32,045 nucleotides of DNA, taken from positions 1-32,045 of the IMG/VR virus record IMGVR_UViG_3300035698_001486. One strand, 5' to 3'. Below, piece after piece: positions 4,544-31,862 of the stretch. A model generated the notes under the pieces. The model was not told the DNA's origin. It ran no database searches and saw nothing but the letters and a program-made list of their open reading frames with translations. The stretch's first letter is position 1, and each line of letters opens with the position of its first letter. A program made the translations under genes and the position numbers. Origin of the DNA: a virus.

Positions 4544-6604
4544 TTATCTCCTCCCACTTCTTTCTATGTAATATACACCATAGTACCTAAGTTGAAATCC
4601 ACTAGACACCGTGGTATTACTGAATTTAAACCTAACCTTCCTCTCAACTGCATCAAAGTCTTGCTCATAAAAAGCATACAAACTTCCCAGTGTAACTGTA
4701 TTACTCCCATTACCTTGTGTAGGAGCCCATGATGCACCACCATCTGTTGAGTACTCTGTTGTAATGCTATTACCCTTAGCCTCATAAACCAACTGAGGTA
4801 TACGGTAGAATTTATTCTGCGCATCATTTACTGTTGATACTATAGACTGAGTCTCCAACATACTCAAAGTGAAATCAGGAGTCTCAAAGGTATTAGTAAT
4901 AGCAACACCATCATTATCAAAAGTGCCAGAACTTAACTGATAAATCTTACCATCAGAATCCCCGATTAATATAATAGTAGTATTAGCTTTAGAAAGATTT
5001 GAACCTATACGATAGTTTTGAGCTCCTATACTCCCCACCAACTCCCCAATAGTAACACTGCTCTGAGCTGAGTAGAAGCCCCAACCTGTCATAGTTCTAT
5101 CTTTCCTATACCATACTGCACCATCTGTGTCTAAACACCACACAATATCAGGATAAGCTGTACCAGTAGGAATCCACAATTGCACCTCGTTAATAACATT
5201 ATCAAATATGGTAAATAATCTATTCTGATAAGTAACATCCAAGTCTGTGAAAAATCTAGTCTTATTAGCTGCGTCTAACTCGGTCACGGTATCATTTCCT
5301 GTATAACCATAGATCGAATTATCCCCTATGACAATGTGTTTTCCACCTATATCAACAACACCATCTTTAGCTAACGCACCTCTATCCGAGACAAGTATAT
5401 CAAATCTGAAAGGAGTCTGTCCACCTACCCATGACATTTTTATTATCTGACGTTCTTTATATATAGCCCACTCATTCCTATTGAGTTGCTTCACCGATAT
5501 AACCCATGACTCATCCCCAATGTCTTGCCATCCTGCTGTACCGTTAATGTAGTCCTCTAGTTTTCCTATGTTCCCCCAACTAGCACGTTGTGGTGCATCT
5601 CCACCATTCTCGGTATTGTTAAAAAATACAACATGGTCTTTTGCGTTTATTATAATCTCGGAGGTACTAATAGTCCCAGCAGCTAGCGCAGTAGCAAGAT
5701 CTGCCATGACCCCCGTGCCTGTATACTTCTGAGGCTGATCAATCCCATTAGTTAAAACTAACGTATCATTCATAACAGCCCAGGAGAATCTATTATCCGC
5801 ATCACCAGTGAATGCTTTAACTGTCCTTATATCATCCAAATACACCGTGACTGCTCCAGGATCTGAAACTGCCACAAGTGCAACTGAAGCTAAAGCATTA
5901 AGATCATCAGGATAAGTACCCCCATCATCTGCATCAGGTGAAGCTATAGCTACTAACATATGAGTCCATGTGTCTGCTGTTAATGCTGGTATGTTGTAAT
6001 CAGCATAAGTCGCACCAGTAGCACCTGCGGCTTGTTCGCTTAACCTGAGCCGAAAAACCCCTGCTGCATGAGTCCCTGTTGATCTCACCCAAAAGCTAAG
6101 GTCTGTATTACTCGCTGCTGATATATCTACATTTTGTAAATCATCTTCCGAACTCACAATGCCTGTACCAAATCCTGCAGCTATCACATGCTTAGCTGAC
6201 TTAGAATCTCTCACTTTAACATCCGTATCTGCTGTTGATGTTACATTAGCTTGAGCATCCCAAGCTGCTTCACAATCATCTACCTCAACCCCTTGTGATA
6301 TAACATCCCAAGTTTCATTACTCGTGTTATACTTATAAGCACAATTCTCAGTAAGTCCAATTGGACTTGAAGATGCATCATTCTGTACAAAATCAAACAT
6401 AGCCATCACAGCACCATTCAACACATTAGTCTTTGTATCCCCAGCTGTAGGAAAAGCTACATGACCTGTATCAGATTGTATTTCACCCTCATGAAGAAAC
6501 ACCCCATTATTCGTGGGTGACTGAGTTATTGCCAGTTGAGTTGGTGGTACTGAAGTAACCATACCCCCCACAGGACTATGAATATGCTTCCATTTACCAG
6601 CCAT
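4544..6604 (-). CDS. Tail hub / stabilisation protein, beta-propeller-like, with inserted jelly-roll-like module
   Basis: A 686-aa protein whose ATG overlaps the upstream stop (TAATG at 6604). The N-terminus (HIHSPVGGMVTSVPP) and many repeated short blades ending in Trp or Tyr (VWCLDTDGAVWYRKD, IGDSDGKIYQLSSG, VIGDNSIYGYTGND) are typical of the beta-propeller nozzle or stabilisation proteins of podovirus tails (P22 gp10-like and T7 gp12-like families). Residues about 110-265 look like an inserted carbohydrate-binding jelly roll (LSFWVRSTGTHAAGVFRLRLSE, then TWTHMLVAI and VYLDDIRT). The C-terminus (YSTDGGASWAP, VRFKFSNT) closes the propeller. The exact family is inferred from pattern and gene order. 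Confidence 0.75.
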   Translation of the reverse strand: MAGKWKHIHSPVGGMVTSVPPTQLAITQSPTNNGVFLHEGEIQSDTGHVAFPTAGDTKTNVLNGAVMAMFDFVQNDASSSPIGLTENCAYKYNTSNETWDVISQGVEVDDCEAAWDAQANVTSTADTDVKVRDSKSAKHVIAAGFGTGIVSSEDDLQNVDISAASNTDLSFWVRSTGTHAAGVFRLRLSEQAAGATGATYADYNIPALTADTWTHMLVAIASPDADDGGTYPDDLNALASVALVAVSDPGAVTVYLDDIRTVKAFTGDADNRFSWAVMNDTLVLTNGIDQPQKYTGTGVMADLATALAAGTISTSEIIINAKDHVVFFNNTENGGDAPQRASWGNIGKLEDYINGTAGWQDIGDESWVISVKQLNRNEWAIYKERQIIKMSWVGGQTPFRFDILVSDRGALAKDGVVDIGGKHIVIGDNSIYGYTGNDTVTELDAANKTRFFTDLDVTYQNRLFTIFDNVINEVQLWIPTGTAYPDIVWCLDTDGAVWYRKDRTMTGWGFYSAQSSVTIGELVGSIGAQNYRIGSNLSKANTTIILIGDSDGKIYQLSSGTFDNDGVAITNTFETPDFTLSMLETQSIVSTVNDAQNKFYRIPQLVYEAKGNSITTEYSTDGGASWAPTQGNGSNTVTLGSLYAFYEQDFDAVERKVRFKFSNTTVSSGFQLRYYGVYYIERSGRR

Positions 6605-7386
6605 TATACTTGAATCTCCGTTAGTTTTAAACTCGTAATTAAAGATCCACCCATTAGCCTATTTCCATCAGATTGACCATTAATAGCAACAGTACCTTCA
6701 TCGCCACCTATACGTAATTTATATGTATGTGATGTACCATCTCCAGCAGTAGTATCAAAAAATTCATACATTAATACGTCAGGAGAATTACCATCAACAC
6801 ATGCTTTCATTCCTGTAGCAATAGCGTTTGCTGTGGTGTCTATGAACAAAGGCATATATATTCGTTGATTCGCTGCTGAATGTGTAACATGCCCTATTAT
6901 AGTAACTAATACAGAGTTGCCAGACACAGCAGATATAGCTTTAGTTAAAATTTCAGTACCTTCTGTAATCTGAGGTATATCATCATCATAAGTTATATCA
7001 CCTTTTACATCAGTTATAACAGTAGCAATTGTTGTATTTAATATCTGAACTATATCACCAGCTTTCTTATTAGTACCTCCTGCATTCTCAATTACAATAG
7101 CACTCCCACCACTTGACGCAAAAACAAAGGCTCCATCTGTATCAAGATATACAACACCCAACTGCGTACCTGCCATAGTAGGTGTAGCAGCTTGTTGTTG
7201 TAACGTCATGAACTGATGAACTCCACCCGCGCTTGTGCCTGTTTGACTAGCAGGCCACTCATGTTCCAAAGCCATCCTTGATCTAACACCAAGCCTTAAA
7301 TCTCTATTATGATCATCAATCAAAGTTGCATTAGTATCATTAGTCGGAGCTGCTTCATTCCAAACTATCCCATCACCCAACGCCAT
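6604..7386 (-). CDS. Putative tail or head fibre protein
   Basis: A 260-aa protein with GGAGGTGACG just before ATG 7386. The N-terminal 60 residues (DDHNRDLRLGVRSRMALEHEWP) resemble the conserved capsid- or tail-attachment segment found at the start of many phage fibre proteins, which carry a similar RxxLExEH stretch. The remainder is beta-rich with Gly, Thr and Asp. From about residue 170 there is a globular sandwich-like domain (IYMPLFIDTTANAIATG, then MYEFFDTTAGDG). Its stop overlaps the start of the tail hub gene, suggesting the two are made together. A fibre or adaptor role is inferred from context and composition. Confidence 0.7.
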   Translation of the reverse strand: MALGDGIVWNEAAPTNDTNATLIDDHNRDLRLGVRSRMALEHEWPASQTGTSAGGVHQFMTLQQQAATPTMAGTQLGVVYLDTDGAFVFASSGGSAIVIENAGGTNKKAGDIVQILNTTIATVITDVKGDITYDDDIPQITEGTEILTKAISAVSGNSVLVTIIGHVTHSAANQRIYMPLFIDTTANAIATGMKACVDGNSPDVLMYEFFDTTAGDGTSHTYKLRIGGDEGTVAINGQSDGNRLMGGSLITSLKLTEIQV

Positions 7387-7389
7387 ACG

Positions 7390-7650
7390 TCACCTCCCAC
7401 TTCTATCAATTAAAACTGCGATATCCTTTCTAATCTCCATCTGTCCAGTCATAACTAAATCAAACTTTTTTTCGAATTTATCTTCTATCCTTTGATCCTC
7501 TAATCGCATAAGCTTTACATTATCCCTCGAGTGCAGCTCACAATCATCTTCATTTGCTTTTATAACAGTACCGATAAAAGTAAACACTGCAACTAAAACA
7601 ACTACCACACAACTAACACCAAGTTTAAACACAGTTCCATTATTAGACAC
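7390..7650 (-). CDS. Small membrane protein with cytosolic or periplasmic coiled coil (lysis-type candidate)
   Basis: An 86-aa protein starting at GTG 7650, four to five bases after AGGAGG. Residues about 8-30 (GVSCVVVVLVAVFTFIGTVI) form one strong transmembrane helix. The rest is charged and helical (VKLMRLEDQRIEDKFEKKF), like a coiled coil. One N-terminal anchor followed by a coiled coil is the layout of inner-membrane spanins, and small membrane proteins in this position can also be holins. No endolysin gene is in the window to confirm a lysis cassette. The membrane helix is clear. The function is only suggested. Confidence 0.75.
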   Translation of the reverse strand: MSNNGTVFKLGVSCVVVVLVAVFTFIGTVIKANEDDCELHSRDNVKLMRLEDQRIEDKFEKKFDLVMTGQMEIRKDIAVLIDRSGR

Positions 7651-7658
7651 GAAGCCTC

Positions 7659-7976
7659 CTATTTTAATGCTATTTTAGCTTTCTCTTCTGCAGCATCCAT
7701 TATTTTATAGATCTGACCCAATACAATAACAGTAGCTTTCGCTTTGACTATAATAATTTTAAGTTCATCCCAATCTGCATCTTCAACTTCAATCTCATCC
7801 TTAGCTCCATACATAGCCATTCCGAGTGTGTACATCCGTACTGGACTCTTAGGTTCCCTATATAGCATGATTATATCTGCTAACATATTCCCAACAGTAA
7901 GAGTCTTACCAGTGGAATCCTTCATATCTCCACCTTTCATATCCTTCAACAGTACGTTAAAGTTTACTTTTTTCAT
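7659..7976 (-). CDS. Conserved-type small phage protein of the tail region
   Basis: A 105-aa protein with a strong AGGAGGCGAG ribosome binding site before ATG 7976. The pattern is a short beta hairpin (VNFNVLLKDMKGGDMKDSTG), then TLTVGNMLADIIM, a helix, and an acidic EVEDADWDELK segment followed by a C-terminal helix ending VLGQIYKIMDAAEE. I recognise this arrangement from many small, uncharacterised phage proteins near tail genes, but no biochemical role is known to me. An assembly chaperone-like role is possible. There is no membrane segment. Confidence 0.78.
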   Translation of the reverse strand: MKKVNFNVLLKDMKGGDMKDSTGKTLTVGNMLADIIMLYREPKSPVRMYTLGMAMYGAKDEIEVEDADWDELKIIIVKAKATVIVLGQIYKIMDAAEEKAKIALK

Positions 7977-8009
7977 CTCGCCTCCTTTAGCTTATCACTA
8001 TAATATGTT

Positions 8010-8132
8010 TCATATCATGTTTTTTTTTCTACCTAATCCACGACCTCCACCACTACCTCTTGTTGGTTTAGGGTCACCTTTCTTGCCAACTCTCGGTGTT
8101 CCTCCACAACTTCCCTTTTTTGCTCCTGCCAT
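8010..8132 (-). CDS. Very small basic Gly-rich phage protein (40 aa)
   Basis: A 40-codon frame with ATG at 8132, preceded by AGGAGGATATC, which is a strong ribosome binding site. It begins MAGAKKGSCGGTPR and continues with a Gly/Lys/Arg-rich tail. Short proteins of this type (KKGSCGGTPR followed by a Gly/Arg tail) recur in many phage structural operons without known function. The basic charge suggests contact with nucleic acid or with a negatively charged virion surface. It fills what would otherwise be an unusual gap between the tailspike and the next gene. Confidence 0.72.
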   Translation of the reverse strand: MAGAKKGSCGGTPRVGKKGDPKPTRGSGGGRGLGRKKNMI

Positions 8133-8174
8133 GATATCCTCCTATTGCGTTAATGTATCTTCATATTTTACTCT

Positions 8175-11156
8175 TTAGTTTTTATATTCCATAAATCCTT
8201 GATATAAACTTATAATATTATCGGCATCAGCACTTGCCCATTGTGCTGTAACTGTTACGTTCATACTTGCTGTTGTGTCTATGTCTGCAACTGCTGTTAA
8301 TCCGACTTCATCTCCAGTTGTATTAGGGTCTCCTATTCTCATATGAGCGTGGATTGCTCGTGTTCCATCAGTTTCTCCTACTGTCAAAGTTCTCTGCGTA
8401 CCATTAACATCAATATGCCATTCATCATCTGTAAGTGTTTTTGTATCTGTTTCTAATGTAACTTTTGTGACATCATTTATTTTAATTCGTATTGTTACTT
8501 CATCAGCAGCAGCAGCTCCACCATTTGAAACTATCCCATCACAATGAAACTTAAATACGTTCCCTGCACATAGACTGTTGGCTGGCATTATACCTGTCCA
8601 TATCAATGTTTCGGTTGTTCCTTCTTTGGCTGGGTCACCACTAACCGTCACAGTCGCTACTGCGACATCACTTGTTCTATCTATTGACCTTGCAGTTGCT
8701 ACATTTGTTATATAAGTTCTGCAACCATCATATTCTATTGCCCCAGCTTCAGGAGTAGTCAATAAAGTACCTGATGTCAGTTTAATAGGTGATGTACCTG
8801 CCGTAGCTGTACCTGCTCTTGGGAGTAATGTGGCAAGGGTTCTAATCCCAGTAGTAGCTTCTATATCTACATATCCATCAGCAAGACTATCTATATACTC
8901 ATTACCGTCTGTTTGAGTGAACTTTATCTTATCTGTAAATAAGACTGAGTTCATAGTCCCACCAGTAAGGGTAGTTGTTCCATCTGTAAGTGTACCAACA
9001 GTAACAGTACCCGAAAAATATCCATCTAACCATCGTAAACTACCCGACCCTAAATTATAATCATCATCTACATCGGGATAGAGATCAGCATCTATACCTA
9101 TATACTCATCAGCTAAATAAGCTGTGATCTGCAGACTAGAAGAAAAATCTTCTTTAGCAAATAAGACATAAACTTCATCATCAGCAGCATGGTCGAATAT
9201 AATTACACCGTCATAGGTACCAAGTCCATAGGGTACAGATATAACAGATGATTCTACCTTACCTGACAATATAGGTACATATATTGTGCCTAACTCTGCA
9301 CCACTCAAATCTAAGAACACCTCATCAGTTTGTAGATATGTACTCGTACCAGTAATAGTTTTAGTATCCCCAGTGAAGTTGAGTGTACCATTACCCCAAT
9401 CAATTATAGGGTTGTCTGTATCATGCCAAAATCTCAGGTAATCAAGGGGTTGTGTTACATCTTCAGAATAAATTCCAAATGTAGGATGAGTAGTTGTGTC
9501 CAGTGGAGATCTATTGGCATGATACAGATCTGCATATTCCATAATATTGAGATACCCACTACTTGTAGCAGCACCGCACACCAGCCCTATCTGAACATTA
9601 TCGTTACCTTCAGTTGACCAGAGGAAAGCACAATCGTTATCATCTCCCAGTACAAATTGCTTATCATCTTTCATCTTAAACCACATGTCAAAAGTTAATG
9701 CAGCATTGGTAGTTGTACCAAAAACTATTGTATCAGCAAAAGATTCAAAATCAAAGGTCATGTTCTCGTTATTAGTACCACCTACACCACCGAAAGTCAT
9801 TATCCCGCTTGCATCCGCAGTTGCAAAAATAGACCCTTGCGTTAGATACAATGCATCATGCACATTAATCGCACTCTCATCAACATCTGCGAAGAGATTG
9901 CTTATATACGAATCGCCAATGCGAGAATTAATTACTGCATAATTAGCTATAGTGGGTGTTCCTAGATATGTATTAGAAGTAATAGTATTATCCGTTCCTC
10001 CCGATTCCTGTACATGGTACCTCACTTTATTAGTTTCATCAGCTAGGAAGATATTGTTCTTTACTGTGTTATAATCCGCACCACCAGCACTGTTTAATCT
10101 CACATCTTCATATGTGGCATCAGTAGCTTGCCCATTATTTACAAACTGGTTATCATTTATAATATGATATTTTGCACCAGTCCATAAATAAACACCCTGC
10201 TTAGTATTCAGCGTTACCATATTATTACTTATATTAATATGCTCGGCATACGAGGTAAACACACCATATGCGTTACTCACTATTTCATTGCCTGTGACCA
10301 CGACATTGGCTATTACTTTCCCGCTTAGTCCTGCAACACCAACCCCACGTTCAGTATTGTTTCTAATAACATTTCCAGTTATGGTGACATATCCTGGGGG
10401 GTTAGTGGTGGAATGAGGATGCATTTCAACACCTACAAGGTTATCATGTAGGATGTTACCTGTAATAGTTATGTATTGCGAGCCATTATCTATCTCAACC
10501 CCTGCCCTAGTAATGCCCCCGTTGAAAGTATTGTTACGTGAGATATTCCCCACAACAGTTATATATTCAGATGTCTCACCTATAGCTATCCCATCATCAC
10601 CAGAGTTCTCTACGATATTGCCCTGTATAATACCATTAGTGCTAGTGTCGTAGCTGATACAATGTAAGTGTGTGTCCTTAACAAATAAACCCCTTACCGT
10701 GACGTTAGTGCTAGTGTCTATCTTCACCCCACACGAATCATGATGGTTAGTATGTGAGTTTATGCCCCCATCTAATGAAAAATTCTCTAATACAATATAA
10801 GATTTACCCGTAGCGTATATAATATTATCACTCGATCTAAACTGTGCCTCATCTGCTACAAGTTTTGTAGCAGTACCAACACCACTAAGCGTCAGATTCG
10901 ATACAAGTGTTATGGTAGCATTTATAGCGTATGTACCAGCAGGAAGTATAATCTTACCACCTTCCGCAGGAAGAGCGTCAATAGCTGCTTGAATACCAAC
11001 CCCCGATTGAGCATAAGTATTACCATCAACATAAAGAATCTTATTAGCACTCGGTATAGCTAAATCCCCAGTAAGAGGATCATTACTACAATCTAATCTT
11101 AAATATTGAGCATCCAACCATGCGGCTGATCTGACATTATCTATATTAATCGGCAC
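8175..11156 (-). CDS. Tailspike / tail fibre with right-handed beta-helix (polysaccharide-degrading type)
   Basis: A 993-aa protein. The start is GTG 11156 with AAGGAGAGA upstream, and it overlaps the preceding gene by 11 bases. Residues about 50-400 form a right-handed parallel beta-helix: an N-terminal cap (YAQSGVGIQAAIDALPAEGG), then regularly spaced coils such as YITVVGNISRNNTFNGG, YITITGNILHDN and VTITGNVIRNN, as in pectate-lyase and NosD-like folds and phage tailspike depolymerases. The middle (about 430-760) is a repetitive fibre shaft (DVDDDYNLGSGSLRWLDGYF is a common fibre motif). The last 200 residues look like a beta-sandwich trimerisation or receptor domain. It probably binds and may cleave surface glycan; active-site residues cannot be assigned from sequence alone. 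Confidence 0.88.
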   Translation of the reverse strand: MPINIDNVRSAAWLDAQYLRLDCSNDPLTGDLAIPSANKILYVDGNTYAQSGVGIQAAIDALPAEGGKIILPAGTYAINATITLVSNLTLSGVGTATKLVADEAQFRSSDNIIYATGKSYIVLENFSLDGGINSHTNHHDSCGVKIDTSTNVTVRGLFVKDTHLHCISYDTSTNGIIQGNIVENSGDDGIAIGETSEYITVVGNISRNNTFNGGITRAGVEIDNGSQYITITGNILHDNLVGVEMHPHSTTNPPGYVTITGNVIRNNTERGVGVAGLSGKVIANVVVTGNEIVSNAYGVFTSYAEHINISNNMVTLNTKQGVYLWTGAKYHIINDNQFVNNGQATDATYEDVRLNSAGGADYNTVKNNIFLADETNKVRYHVQESGGTDNTITSNTYLGTPTIANYAVINSRIGDSYISNLFADVDESAINVHDALYLTQGSIFATADASGIMTFGGVGGTNNENMTFDFESFADTIVFGTTTNAALTFDMWFKMKDDKQFVLGDDNDCAFLWSTEGNDNVQIGLVCGAATSSGYLNIMEYADLYHANRSPLDTTTHPTFGIYSEDVTQPLDYLRFWHDTDNPIIDWGNGTLNFTGDTKTITGTSTYLQTDEVFLDLSGAELGTIYVPILSGKVESSVISVPYGLGTYDGVIIFDHAADDEVYVLFAKEDFSSSLQITAYLADEYIGIDADLYPDVDDDYNLGSGSLRWLDGYFSGTVTVGTLTDGTTTLTGGTMNSVLFTDKIKFTQTDGNEYIDSLADGYVDIEATTGIRTLATLLPRAGTATAGTSPIKLTSGTLLTTPEAGAIEYDGCRTYITNVATARSIDRTSDVAVATVTVSGDPAKEGTTETLIWTGIMPANSLCAGNVFKFHCDGIVSNGGAAAADEVTIRIKINDVTKVTLETDTKTLTDDEWHIDVNGTQRTLTVGETDGTRAIHAHMRIGDPNTTGDEVGLTAVADIDTTASMNVTVTAQWASADADNIISLYQGFMEYKN

Positions 11157-28101: not shown

Positions 28102-28267
28102 GCTTAAGAGGGAGAAGACACAAAGGCTTGCTGATTTGTTATACCCACTTATATCATGTAAATTCTACACCGAGTGTGTTATGTTAAGGTGTGATGATTG
28201 TACTTATTTCAAAGAACATGTGTATGACATAGCAGAGCAGTTAATAGAACATGTGGAGTTGGTATGA
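28046..28267 (+). CDS. 73-aa Cys-rich early protein
   Basis: The start is ATG 28046 with AGGAG seven bases upstream; the longer frame from 27950 runs against the overlapping gene. C38, C44, C49 and C52 (ISCKFYTECVMLRCDDC) form a compact Cys cluster, followed by an acidic helix (VYDIAEQLIEHVELV). The stop overlaps the next ATG (ATGA). It may bind zinc or an iron-sulfur cluster. Family not recognised. Confidence 0.74.
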   Translation: MDMEKHAKMEMIELNPPLELKREKTQRLADLLYPLISCKFYTECVMLRCDDCTYFKEHVYDIAEQLIEHVELV

Positions 28268-28407
28268 AGTCTGCTGTTTTCGCCTTCAAGTTTAACACCA
28301 CACCGAGGAAGTGTGTAGTATGTGGGAAGAAGTATAAGCCAAAAGCACCAGTTCAGAAGTATTGTAATAAATGCAGAGAGTTAGTTAAAAATAGGAGGGT
28401 AAGATAA
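28264..28407 (+). CDS. 47-aa zinc-ribbon micro-protein
   Basis: A 47-codon frame from ATG 28264, overlapping the previous stop, ending with TAA 28405-28407 which overlaps the next ATG (TAATG). C17-x2-C20 and C34-x2-C37 (CVVCGKKYKP, YCNKCREL) form a zinc-ribbon of the ribosomal L37ae or MJ0042-like kind, with a very basic surround. Nucleic-acid binding is plausible. Function unknown. Confidence 0.7.
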   Translation: MKSAVFAFKFNTTPRKCVVCGKKYKPKAPVQKYCNKCRELVKNRRVR

Positions 28408-28685
28408 TGTTTAATTCAGAATTCAGATGTAAATGTGGGAGTCAGAAGTTCCATGACATCCCAGTAGTTGAGCGAGGTGTTGACTCCTGTGAATGGGATA
28501 TAGCATACACAGAATGTACCAAATGTGGGGAGAGGTATGACCCCGACACAGCAGAAAAAATTGGCTGTAAGACAGAAGTCTTCTCCCGAGTGACTGGTTT
28601 TTATAGACCAGTCCAAACTTGGAATAAAGGTAAGACGGAGGAGTTTAAGGATAGGAAATCTTTTAAACACGGGAAGGCGGAGTGA
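28407..28685 (+). CDS. Stand-alone NrdD-type C-terminal glycyl-radical domain protein
   Basis: A 92-aa protein starting at ATG 28407 with AGGAGGG upstream. Residues 55-85 (KTEVFSRVTGFYRPVQ, then TWNKGKTEEFKDRKSF) match the C-terminus of anaerobic (class III) ribonucleotide reductase NrdD, where the Gly of RVTGYY-type motifs carries the glycyl radical; here G64 is the candidate. C37-x2-C40 with C8 and C10 could be the NrdD-type zinc site. The catalytic ~500-600 residues are absent and no frameshift or neighbouring NrdD fragment is visible. It may be a split subunit or a repair domain like GrcA for pyruvate formate-lyase, or a decayed gene. Confidence 0.68.
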   Translation: MFNSEFRCKCGSQKFHDIPVVERGVDSCEWDIAYTECTKCGERYDPDTAEKIGCKTEVFSRVTGFYRPVQTWNKGKTEEFKDRKSFKHGKAE

Positions 28686-29134: not shown

Positions 29135-29219
29135 TAAATATGAACCCCATCAAGGTAACAAAGAGAAGGCTAGAAGACGTAGTAAAAAGGAGAATAAGAA
29201 TGAAACAAAAAACGGATAA
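29115..29219 (+). CDS. 34-aa very basic micro-protein
   Basis: A 34-codon frame from ATG 29115 (AAGGATGG upstream), overlapping the genes on both sides. More than a third of residues are Lys or Arg (KKKHPSKYEPHQ, KARRRSKKENK). It may bind nucleic acid or simply be a short overlapping frame. The ribosome binding site of the radical SAM gene lies inside it, so translation here may help load ribosomes for that gene. Confidence 0.45.
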   Translation: MKKKHPSKYEPHQGNKEKARRRSKKENKNETKNG

Positions 29220-30279
29220 ATGGAACATGGATGGGTGTAAGCTCCTATGGCATATGCCTAGGGTAGAAGCTCACTTCAAACATAAAGAAAGAATAGCCCC
29301 TTTACACATCGACATGGCATGCACGAAGTTATGTAATGCCTCATGCGTTTACTGCTATGGGATAAAACAAAACATGTCGGGTGCAACGCTATCCCGTGAA
29401 CCCCTCCTCGACCTATTCCGAACTGCACATCAGCTCGGTGTTAAGTCTATCACAATGACAGGAGACGGTGAGAACACCTTAAACCCCCACATGTATGATG
29501 CATTAGAGCTCGGGAAAAAGAAAGGACTCGATCTAGGACTAGCAACCAACGGGATAGCGTTAGATGTGGAGAAAATAAGAAAGCTAGTAAGCACCTGCAC
29601 ATGGCTTCGCTTCAATTTGTCAGCCATAGGCTCGGAGGGTTATAAATCCATACACGGTGTCCCTCAGTGGGAGCGTGTGCAGGCCAATATCGACACCGCA
29701 GTTAGGATTAACGAGGAGCTAGGAAGTCCTTGCACCATAGGACTTCAGATGGTTCTCATCCCTGAAGCGTTAGAATACGTTATCCCCGAAGCTGCATGGG
29801 CTGTGAGCACGGGAGTCGATTACTTCGTGGTTAAACAATTCTCTGATCCTGGAAACGAGGAAATGAGTCAGTTTGACCTTAAATGGTATGATGATGATGT
29901 TCTCAAAAGTACGTTGGAGACTGCGGAGTCTCTCTCTAACGAGAAAACTCAAATTGTGATTAAATGGGCTAGGATAGATCAAAAAGGAAAGAGACCATAT
30001 AATCAATGCTATGACGCACCTCTTTTATTCCAAATATCTGGGAATGGGAAGTGTTATCCTTGTGGGTACTTATTCGGGGATGATAGGTATTGCTATGGTG
30101 ATTTGAATACACAATCTCTAGCTGAAATATTAGCCTCCGAACATTACTGGAAGCTGATAGAATACATGCAGAAGTATTTCAACGTACATAAAGACTGCAT
30201 GGGATGTTGTAGACACGATGGAACGAATCAATTTATGGAGGAATATCTCAATCCTCCAGATCATTTGAATTTTATTTAA
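29200..30279 (+). CDS. Radical SAM enzyme with SPASM-like C-terminus
   Basis: A 359-aa protein. The start is ATG 29200 with AGGAG seven bases upstream. The [4Fe-4S] motif is C45-x3-C49-x2-C52 (CNASCVYCYG); TMTGDGENTLNP (residues 86-96) is the GGE-type SAM-binding strand of the family. The C-terminal part has extra Cys (QCYDAPLLF, GKCYPCGYLFGD, KDCMGCC), a SPASM or twitch-type auxiliary cluster region. Such enzymes modify peptides, sugars or nucleotides by radical chemistry. Here it precedes a glycosyltransferase and a TPP-dependent E1 subunit, so a sugar or surface-glycan substrate is the likeliest guess. It could also act on a peptide. Confidence 0.9.
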   Translation: MKQKTDKWNMDGCKLLWHMPRVEAHFKHKERIAPLHIDMACTKLCNASCVYCYGIKQNMSGATLSREPLLDLFRTAHQLGVKSITMTGDGENTLNPHMYDALELGKKKGLDLGLATNGIALDVEKIRKLVSTCTWLRFNLSAIGSEGYKSIHGVPQWERVQANIDTAVRINEELGSPCTIGLQMVLIPEALEYVIPEAAWAVSTGVDYFVVKQFSDPGNEEMSQFDLKWYDDDVLKSTLETAESLSNEKTQIVIKWARIDQKGKRPYNQCYDAPLLFQISGNGKCYPCGYLFGDDRYCYGDLNTQSLAEILASEHYWKLIEYMQKYFNVHKDCMGCCRHDGTNQFMEEYLNPPDHLNFI

Positions 30280-30375: not shown

Positions 30376-31266
30376 ATGAAAAAAGTACTCATAATAAAAA
30401 TGGGATATTCCGAGACTCTTACTCCCGAGATTACTCGGAAGTCCAGTCTGGGTGATGTCTTAAGAACAACCGTTATCTTGAATTACTTTCTAGGATGCCA
30501 CGTGACATGGTTAGTAGACGAGGTGGCTCGACCTCTACTTGAAGAGAACCCCCGTATTGATGTTTTACTAGACTGGAATCTCGAGACCTATGTAAGACTA
30601 ATGTCGGAACAATTCGACATCGTAGTAAACTTGGAAAAAATTCCTGGTATTTGTGCCTTAGCTAACTCCATCACCGCACATACTAAATACGGTTTCCATT
30701 TCAACCATAACACAGGCACAGCTGAAGCTCATAAGGATACCGAAAAGATATTAGACATAGCCACGAGTCCAAAGGCTAAACGAGAGAATGGACTAGTATG
30801 GCAAGACCATCTAGCCAACGCAATAAGAGAAACCTGGACTCCTGAGGATTATTACATCCTCAACAAACCAAACACGGAGGTGAAATATGACATCGGAATT
30901 AATCACAAAGTTGGTGAGAAATGGGTTGATAAAGCATGGCCACTCGATCTATGGCAATCACTCGCTTGGTATCTTGAGAACTCAGGGTATAAAATATCTT
31001 GGCAAGAGGGGTGTGACAGTCTTCACAAGTACATGGAGTGGATTAATCAGTGCTCTTGTATTATCACTACTGATTCTCTTGGTCTTCACATTGCTCTTGG
31101 GTATAGGAAAAGAGTTCTTGTGTTATTTGGACCTAGTCCTAGTCAGGAGGTATTTCTCTATAACACAGGACATGCTGTCGTAAGCCCAACAGGTAAAATG
31201 GAAGATATAAAGGTAGCTAAGGTGTTAAAGGAGGTAGAGTGTTTAAATATAATAAGAATGAGTTGA
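30376..31266 (+). CDS. Glycosyltransferase family 9 (heptosyltransferase-like)
   Basis: A 296-aa protein with GGGAGGAAC before ATG 30376. The N-terminal Rossmann domain starts KVLIIKMGYSETLTP; then SLGDVLRTT (about residues 24-32) is the conserved GT9 donor or acceptor loop. Later VTWLVDEVARPLL, DIVVNLEKIPGICALA, and in the C-terminal domain WPLDLWQSL and CIITTDSLGLHIAL then VLFGPSPS, all hallmarks of ADP-heptose:LPS heptosyltransferase-like GT9 enzymes. The insertion after residue 10 is shared with a subgroup I recall from bacterial polysaccharide clusters. It transfers a sugar (donor unknown) and is probably cytosolic or membrane-associated. Confidence 0.88.
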   Translation: MKKVLIIKMGYSETLTPEITRKSSLGDVLRTTVILNYFLGCHVTWLVDEVARPLLEENPRIDVLLDWNLETYVRLMSEQFDIVVNLEKIPGICALANSITAHTKYGFHFNHNTGTAEAHKDTEKILDIATSPKAKRENGLVWQDHLANAIRETWTPEDYYILNKPNTEVKYDIGINHKVGEKWVDKAWPLDLWQSLAWYLENSGYKISWQEGCDSLHKYMEWINQCSCIITTDSLGLHIALGYRKRVLVLFGPSPSQEVFLYNTGHAVVSPTGKMEDIKVAKVLKEVECLNIIRMS

Positions 31267-31862
31267 TAGCCTTTGAAAGGTACATCAAACATCTGTTTGA
31301 ATTAGGAGAAATCCATGCGCCAGTTCATTTATCAGGGGGGAATGAGGATCAGTTACTCAAAGTGTTTGAGAATATAAAGGAAGAAGACTATGTATTCTCA
31401 ACTCACCGTTCGCATTATCACTACCTGTTAAAGGGAGGAGATCCCTTCCAACTGGTGGAGGAACTAAGAGGTATGAAATGGGGTTTATGTAAGGGGAAGG
31501 CTCGTTCCATGCATCTCTGTGATACCAAGTTAAACTTTTATTCAAGTGCCATCGTGGGTGGGTGCTGTGCTATAGCTACAGGGGTAGGGATGGCTTTAGC
31601 AAAGAAGAAATCATCCGCTCATGTATGGTGCTTTGTAGGAGATGGTGCAGCTGACGGGGGGCATTTTGTAGAAGCTGCTCGTTATGCCTCAGGTCATGAT
31701 TTACCGGTTACGTTCATAGTAGAAGATAATAACAGGTCAGTAGAGACTACGAATATAGAAAGATGGGGTAAGGCACTTGGGTTTGGTGCTAACAACGTGG
31801 TGCATTATGAATATAAAGCAACCTTTCCTCATGTTGGGGTTGGGAAACATGTTAGTATGTAA
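31239..31862 (+). CDS. Short TPP-dependent dehydrogenase E1 alpha-type enzyme
   Basis: A 207-aa protein from GTG 31239 (GGAGGTAGA upstream), overlapping the GT9 gene by 28 bases. The thiamine pyrophosphate motif is complete: GDG (134-136), 27 residues, then NN (164-165), inside GDGAADGGHFVEAARYASGH. The start YVFSTHRSHYHYLLKGGDP and GKARSMHLCD match E1 alpha subunits of pyruvate, acetoin or branched-chain dehydrogenases. It is much shorter than standard E1 alpha (about 320-400 aa) and ends right after FPHVGVGKHVSM, an end also seen in short E1-type proteins of sugar clusters, so it is probably complete. A partner beta subunit should lie downstream, outside the window. Confidence 0.86.
   Translation: MFKYNKNELIAFERYIKHLFELGEIHAPVHLSGGNEDQLLKVFENIKEEDYVFSTHRSHYHYLLKGGDPFQLVEELRGMKWGLCKGKARSMHLCDTKLNFYSSAIVGGCCAIATGVGMALAKKKSSAHVWCFVGDGAADGGHFVEAARYASGHDLPVTFIVEDNNRSVETTNIERWGKALGFGANNVVHYEYKATFPHVGVGKHVSM

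Follow-up and report, generated by a model that had tools for sequence, protein, structure and literature searches.

The window analyzed here is the whole of IMG/VR record IMGVR_UViG_3300035698_001486 (32,045 nucleotides), a linear 32-kb virus fragment. It contains, on the plus strand at 28407–28685, a small gene whose 92-residue product is probably (with a probability of roughly 0.7) a detached glycyl-radical domain of the class III (anaerobic) ribonucleotide reductase, NrdD, that works in trans. The best reading of its role is that of a radical subunit or spare part which would serve the NrdD of the host. The evidence comes from the gene itself, from the arrangement of related genes in cellular genomes, and from stand-alone tails in other phages.

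The tail gene and its setting in the viral record

The gene is complete, as a reading of the sequence alone had held. It starts with an ATG at 28407, ends with a TGA at 28685, and is preceded by its own Shine-Dalgarno sequence, AGGAGGG (28393–28399), 7 nt upstream of the start codon. A 47-residue zinc-finger ORF on the same strand (28264–28407) ends in a stop codon that shares bases with the ATG of the tail gene (TAATG), which places the tail gene in an operon. The zinc-finger ORF is likely a co-translated neighbor, with a putative functional tie.

Residues 28–86 of the protein match the end of Pfam family NRDD (positions 514–562 of 562, E = 2.8e-11), with a score of 43.3 bits compared to the curated cut-off of 26.2 bits. 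TIGR02487 (NrdD) is likewise matched at positions 533–580 of 581 only. NrdD is the only family with Pfam and NCBIfam matches above noise, and the Pfam search gave no match to any PFL-type family, and hence no sign of homology to the C-terminus of pyruvate formate-lyase. The gene thus encodes only the C-terminal radical segment of NrdD, in agreement with the sequence-only reading.

The predicted radical glycine is Gly64 (codon 28596–28598), located in the radical loop RVTGFYRPV (28587–28613). Within the segment SRVTGFYRPVQ, it aligns with the loop RIVGYL of T. maritima NrdD, in which the radical glycine is Gly621 (PMC4493059), and it fits the loop pattern [RK]xxG[YF]. A C-terminal motif, WNKGKTEEFKDRKSF (28620–28664), is common to NrdD C-termini and stand-alone tails. 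The protein is homologous to the C-terminal domain of NrdD known from the T. maritima, T4 and P. copri structures, with the SRVxGYxRPV loop, WNxGK and EF.DR, but differs from it in being a free 92-residue protein with another, Cys-rich N-terminus and without the catalytic barrel.

Cysteines are found at positions 8, 10, 28, 37, 40 and 54. Cys8, Cys10, Cys37 and Cys40 make up an N-terminal CxC...CxxC stretch (28428–28526), for which the AlphaFold model is of low confidence. This stretch is probably a zinc ribbon of its own, and similar Cys pairs are seen in ANMV-1 and at loci L028, L110/L180, L216 and L217. Cys54 (28566–28568) directly precedes the radical loop and, by sequence comparison, takes the position of the fourth NrdD zinc ligand, which in type A splits is found on the tail protein (see below).

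The AlphaFold model of the whole protein is poor (pLDDT 65, pTM 0.34). A PDB fold search with this low-confidence model found nothing significant (T. maritima NrdD, PDB code 4u3e, was at rank 9 with an E-value of 3.5), and a phmmer search of the PDB with the 92-residue protein gave no match. Between the window tail and 17 other tails, synonymous differences are near saturation (pS 0.73–1.24) and nonsynonymous differences are low (pN 0.12–0.28). The radical glycine is kept in all 162 tails read, at loci chosen by similarity and with a search pattern that did not include this glycine. In a tree of the tails (34 columns), the window protein is placed among Omnitrophota split tails and the phage tail of L002 (support 0.70); with supports of 0.66–0.78, the tree gives a hint that the window protein may be close to the Omnitrophota tails.

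A six-frame NRDD search of the 32-kb record gave no match beyond the tail, and thus neither a full-length NrdD nor a body or catalytic barrel. A frameshift or sequencing error as the origin of the lone tail, which would have separated it from a catalytic fragment, is ruled out since no NrdD body is present in any frame of the record. A tblastn search of the window with two NrdG proteins as queries, which divergent NrdGs could escape, gave no match. Since the record is a linear fragment, NrdD and NrdG are missing from the fragment, not thereby from the virus. The left part of the record encodes, on the minus strand, a terminase, a portal, a major head protein and another structural protein. In a search for the host, the terminase matched none of the 384 genomes sampled from the Omnitrophota phylum.

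The window phage has three terminase relatives, one of which (L204, terminase 54% identical) shows no tail gene among the ORFs read, although it keeps the neighboring genes; the tail gene is therefore accessory. The sole nearby radical-SAM gene of the window (29140–30279) encodes a SPASM protein with a weak NrdG2 score (29 bits compared to a cut-off of 131). It is unlikely to be a dedicated activase, given its SPASM type, this score and its retention in the tail-less L204. The same gene is paired with a dehydrogenase-E1-like gene (31239–31862), with a GT9-like glycosyltransferase between the two in the window, and the pair is also found in L204 (2410–3483 and 1240–1911, both on the minus strand). 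The pair looks like a conserved phage cassette.

Split NrdD in cellular genomes

Genome contigs were scanned with alignment A4, which gave at least 577 stretches. Of these, 572 were confirmed, and the best 80 of the 572 were taken as loci. Stand-alone tail ORFs, 44 in total, were found in 42 of these 80 loci, and an NrdD body is also present in 38 of the 42. These 38 cellular loci were examined in detail together with a Paracoccus plasmid (L008) and a phage (L025). The body ORF has no tail of its own in 39 of the 40 loci, the exception being L110, where a full-length NrdD is followed by an extra tail. An NrdG-like match lies within the locus in 38 of the 40.

The splits differ in where the zinc site is placed. 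In type A, the body ends after CPxHGYxxGEHxxCP and the tail protein begins with MxKCG, such that the zinc site would be divided between the two chains. In type B, found in Paracoccus and many Omnitrophota, the CxxC stays on the body and the tail begins later. Type C tails bring a Cys-pair ribbon of their own; they are found in the window, ANMV-1, L028 and Patescibacteria.

Samples of genomes were surveyed in several groups, the names of which we take partly from general knowledge. Among 58 Omnitrophota genomes, 22 have an NRDD match (13 split, 7 full-length, 1 partial and 1 weak), and NrdD is thus split in 13 of the 20 classifiable genomes; eight of the 13 splits were read on the sequence and five from the table alone. 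In the Victivallis phylum, 35 of 49 genomes have a match and 13 of the 35 are split (7 type A and 6 type B), with seven of the splits read on the sequence and six from the table alone. In the Desulfuromonas (L139) phylum, 32 of 49 genomes have a match; NrdD is split in 4 of the 32 and full-length in 26, one of the latter with an internal stop, and the remaining two are a masked case and a match at a contig edge. The Patescibacteria class of G059 (73 genomes, 22 with a match) contains 16 full-length NrdDs, two of which carry large inserts, 5 split ones and 1 C-terminal piece only. The ambiguous cases G099, G107, G111, G131, G143 and G154, as well as G068, are split on the sequence, and G184 is fused. 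The break points are located near at least four NRDD profile positions (437, 518, 526 and 530), which implies several independent splits.

Some splits take unusual forms. A Patescibacteria NrdD (G310) is broken near profile position 437, and its C-terminal subunit of ~150 residues is present as two identical copies (L214 1470–1934 and 2059–2523, G310:C9) on another contig than the body. In a second Patescibacteria NrdD lineage (VTGYFSKxSMWNxGK), the zinc-plus-radical end is a separate gene for 59–62 residues (L215 2271–2450 and L219 1381–1569). In the Lentisphaeria loci L113 and L138, two tandem stand-alone tails lie 3' of one tail-less NrdD body.

The zinc-ribbon form of the tail also occurs beside nrdD. 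In two Patescibacteria genomes (G059 and G251), a ribbon-plus-tail gene (92–94-residue frame) has a full-length nrdD on one side and an nrdG-like gene on the other, and in a third (G280) such a gene follows a tail-less NrdD body. Judged by sequence, the window protein appears to share this architecture. The difference between the first two arrangements and the third suggests a possible path from a spare copy to an obligate subunit.

Stand-alone tails in other phages

Scanning viral contigs with the tail alignment led to 268 confirmed places, and the best 80 of the 268 were taken as loci. In 58 of these 80 loci, the tail is encoded by a short ORF of its own. In the other 22, it lies within, or directly after, an NrdD body; this count includes L017, in which the body is in another frame just upstream of the tail. 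Stand-alone tails like that of the window are thus common in other phages. The sequence-only reading had regarded such a gene as notable in a phage, and many phages do carry lone tails, but the gene is no peculiarity of phages, as many bacteria have an ordinary gene just for this domain.

Whole records were searched for 49 of the 58 stand-alone viral loci and for ANMV-1. Tail matches only, with no body, were found in 49 of these 50 records, among which no completeness estimate reaches 90% or more. The records without a body include ANMV-1 at 38 kb and others of 50–72 kb, and two records (G015 and G044) contain two tails each. The sole record with both a tail and a body is G008 (L025). Its genes are ordered as an nrdG-like gene with a radical-SAM match, an intein-bearing NrdD body that ends at the zinc site (4909–7149), a TnpB-like gene on the opposite strand (7253–8635), a thymidylate-kinase-like gene, and a 59-residue tail 2.9 kb from the body. 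The intein, TnpB-like and thymidylate-kinase-like labels are our reading of the sequences. So read, L025 is a split NrdD enzyme in a phage.

The genes next to phage tails are varied and include terminase (L002 and L028), a Sak4-like annealing protein and RusA (L060), primase/helicase (L052), a replication initiation protein (L018), a Mu Gam-like protein (L067) and tape measure (L011). Tails near replication genes are found in L060, L052, L018 and G156 (L199), and some phage tails are in late modules, for example beside terminase or tape measure.

The tail protein of ANMV-1 (L004 11767–12201, KP703175.1) consists of 144 residues with a zinc ribbon and a tail. It covers NRDD positions 519–562 only, and there is no catalytic body in the 38-kb record. 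A scan of the viral contigs with this protein found no relative. The gene carries the annotation of an anaerobic ribonucleotide reductase, and ANMV-1 has been published as encoding an "oxygen-sensitive ribonucleotide reductase" (PMC4372165); the record is corrected here, in that this reductase is a 144-residue tail protein without a body in the record.

Extra stand-alone tails are also seen in genomes with a split NrdD. In the Victivallis-phylum sample, extra tails that are not linked to nrdD occur in 6 of the 7 genomes with a type A split, compared to 0 of the 28 others with an NRDD match (Fisher p = 4e-6, without a correction for kinship). The Omnitrophota (58 genomes) and Desulfuromonas-phylum (49 genomes) samples showed no unlinked tails. 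In G156, one extra tail is flanked by an exonuclease/Dda-like helicase on one side and by a DNA polymerase processivity factor on the other. Three more, at near-identical loci, are next to a protein similar to the Sak4-like one of L060.

Proposed role and relation to known systems

That the window protein would carry a radical, and would repair or complete an NrdD, is our inference. In the proposed mechanism, the host NrdG would install the radical on Gly64 of the free protein, which would then dock on the host NrdD body such that the radical loop enters the barrel in the manner of the covalent tail in known NrdD structures. The complex would reduce ribonucleotides without oxygen, for phage DNA synthesis, with the phage supplying the small radical part and the host supplying the body and the activase. 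The partner could be a naturally tail-less host NrdD, a form known here from the gene arrangement in many genomes, or one with a cut or inactive tail of its own. The latter, spare-part use would be in line with the two Patescibacteria in which the ribbon-form tail separates nrdG from a full-length nrdD. A non-covalent version of the domain is plausible from the structure of P. copri NrdD, in which the radical domain consists of a zinc site, a buried loop and a surface tail (PMC11226230).

We see even odds for a broader proposal, in which phages of anaerobes would routinely carry a portable NrdD radical subunit as a spare part with which to restore, during infection, host NrdD that has been damaged by oxygen or has no tail. 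In this view, NrdD would be a modular enzyme whose radical domain was split off several times, and the zinc-ribbon copy beside full-length NrdD would be an intermediate on the way from spare part to obligate subunit.

The main competing explanation is that the phage itself encodes all of a split NrdD, with the body and perhaps also NrdG lying beyond the 32-kb fragment, and that the gene encodes a subunit of this phage enzyme. The record is indeed a linear fragment and L025 shows that such a phage exists, but the lack of a body in 49 of 50 tail records, including ANMV-1 (38 kb) and those of 50–72 kb, though none is estimated to be at least 90% complete, makes this unlikely. More doubtful still is a decoy or inhibitor, where the free tail would occupy NrdG or the NrdD barrel and thereby stop host dNTP synthesis or block a competing phage. 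Stand-alone pieces of multi-part enzymes can act as dominant negatives, and NrdD and NrdG are missing from most of the records with phage copies. However, a pure decoy would not need the glycine and the entire loop, which are intact in all tails read, most of the sequence relatives are separate genes inside nrdD–nrdG clusters, and less dNTP rarely benefits a phage.

A functionless, decayed remnant of a full-length phage NrdD would agree with a small accessory gene that is not seen in the related L204. It is nevertheless highly improbable in view of the gene's own ribosome site, the strong purifying pattern (pN 0.12–0.28), the extra N-terminal Cys-pair ribbon, and the presence of the detached tail unit in dozens of unlike phages. 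We give equally little weight to a redox or oxygen sensor, i.e. a zinc-ribbon protein that has borrowed the oxygen-labile radical loop for regulation. The CxC/CxxC ribbon before the loop and the zinc-finger ORF coupled upstream would fit a sensor, but a catalytic role is favored by G280, where the tail-less NrdD body has no tail next to it other than the zinc-ribbon form.

The reading as a trans-acting radical part of NrdD has its closest analogs in YfiD/GrcA and T4 Y06I, which are proven trans radical domains for pyruvate formate-lyase (PMC8683613, PMC12338860). Like the window tail, these are small free radical domains, also phage-borne, that serve a large enzyme in trans. The window tail differs in belonging to NrdD instead of pyruvate formate-lyase, and its repair role is putative; moreover, its cellular relatives are mostly beside tail-less bodies and look like obligate subunits, unlike GrcA. 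Andorfer et al. give only YfiD and Y06I as validated spare parts and consider parts for other glycyl radical enzymes possible (PMC8683613). The two readings offered at the outset, a split NrdD and a GrcA-like free part, thus both have real counterparts.

Other reductases and nrdD genes are also known in pieces. In the split class II reductase NrdJa/NrdJb, a small C-terminal chain that bears zinc is separate from the large chain (PMC9669993), but this enzyme is B12-dependent and has no glycyl radical. The published split nrdD genes of phages are interrupted by introns or homing endonucleases (Dwivedi et al. 2013, PMC3653736); there the body is present, whereas here body and activase were not found in the fragment. 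Within the open-access literature, with subscription papers and preprints largely outside this scope, we found no description of a split NrdD with a separate radical subunit, and phage stand-alone NrdD tails were not described as such. By analogy, the window protein may represent the GrcA principle carried over to another enzyme family, and a split reductase in a class for which we found no such report.

The window points to a natural set of spare parts for the anaerobic DNA-precursor reductase, in cells and phages. If this is true, phages would supply the oxygen-labile part and not the whole enzyme, and the class III radical domain would be available as a protein of its own for addition, exchange and labelling, by which radical installation, docking and half-site activity become directly testable.

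Type B splits of NrdD are already visible in the annotation of RefSeq, where small "nrdD" genes of 58–64 residues lie between "ribonucleoside triphosphate reductase" and NrdG, for example in Bradyrhizobium, Sulfuricurvum and Aquabacterium plasmids. As in the window, these are stand-alone NrdD tails; theirs are cellular and adjoin the body and nrdG, whereas the window gene is alone in a phage and its protein comes with a Cys-pair ribbon. In PHROGs, NrdD corresponds to phrog_487, and phrog_4132, a family of unknown function, is matched by 5 of the 26 members of alignment A4, with the match of L057 covering positions 117–153 of 179.
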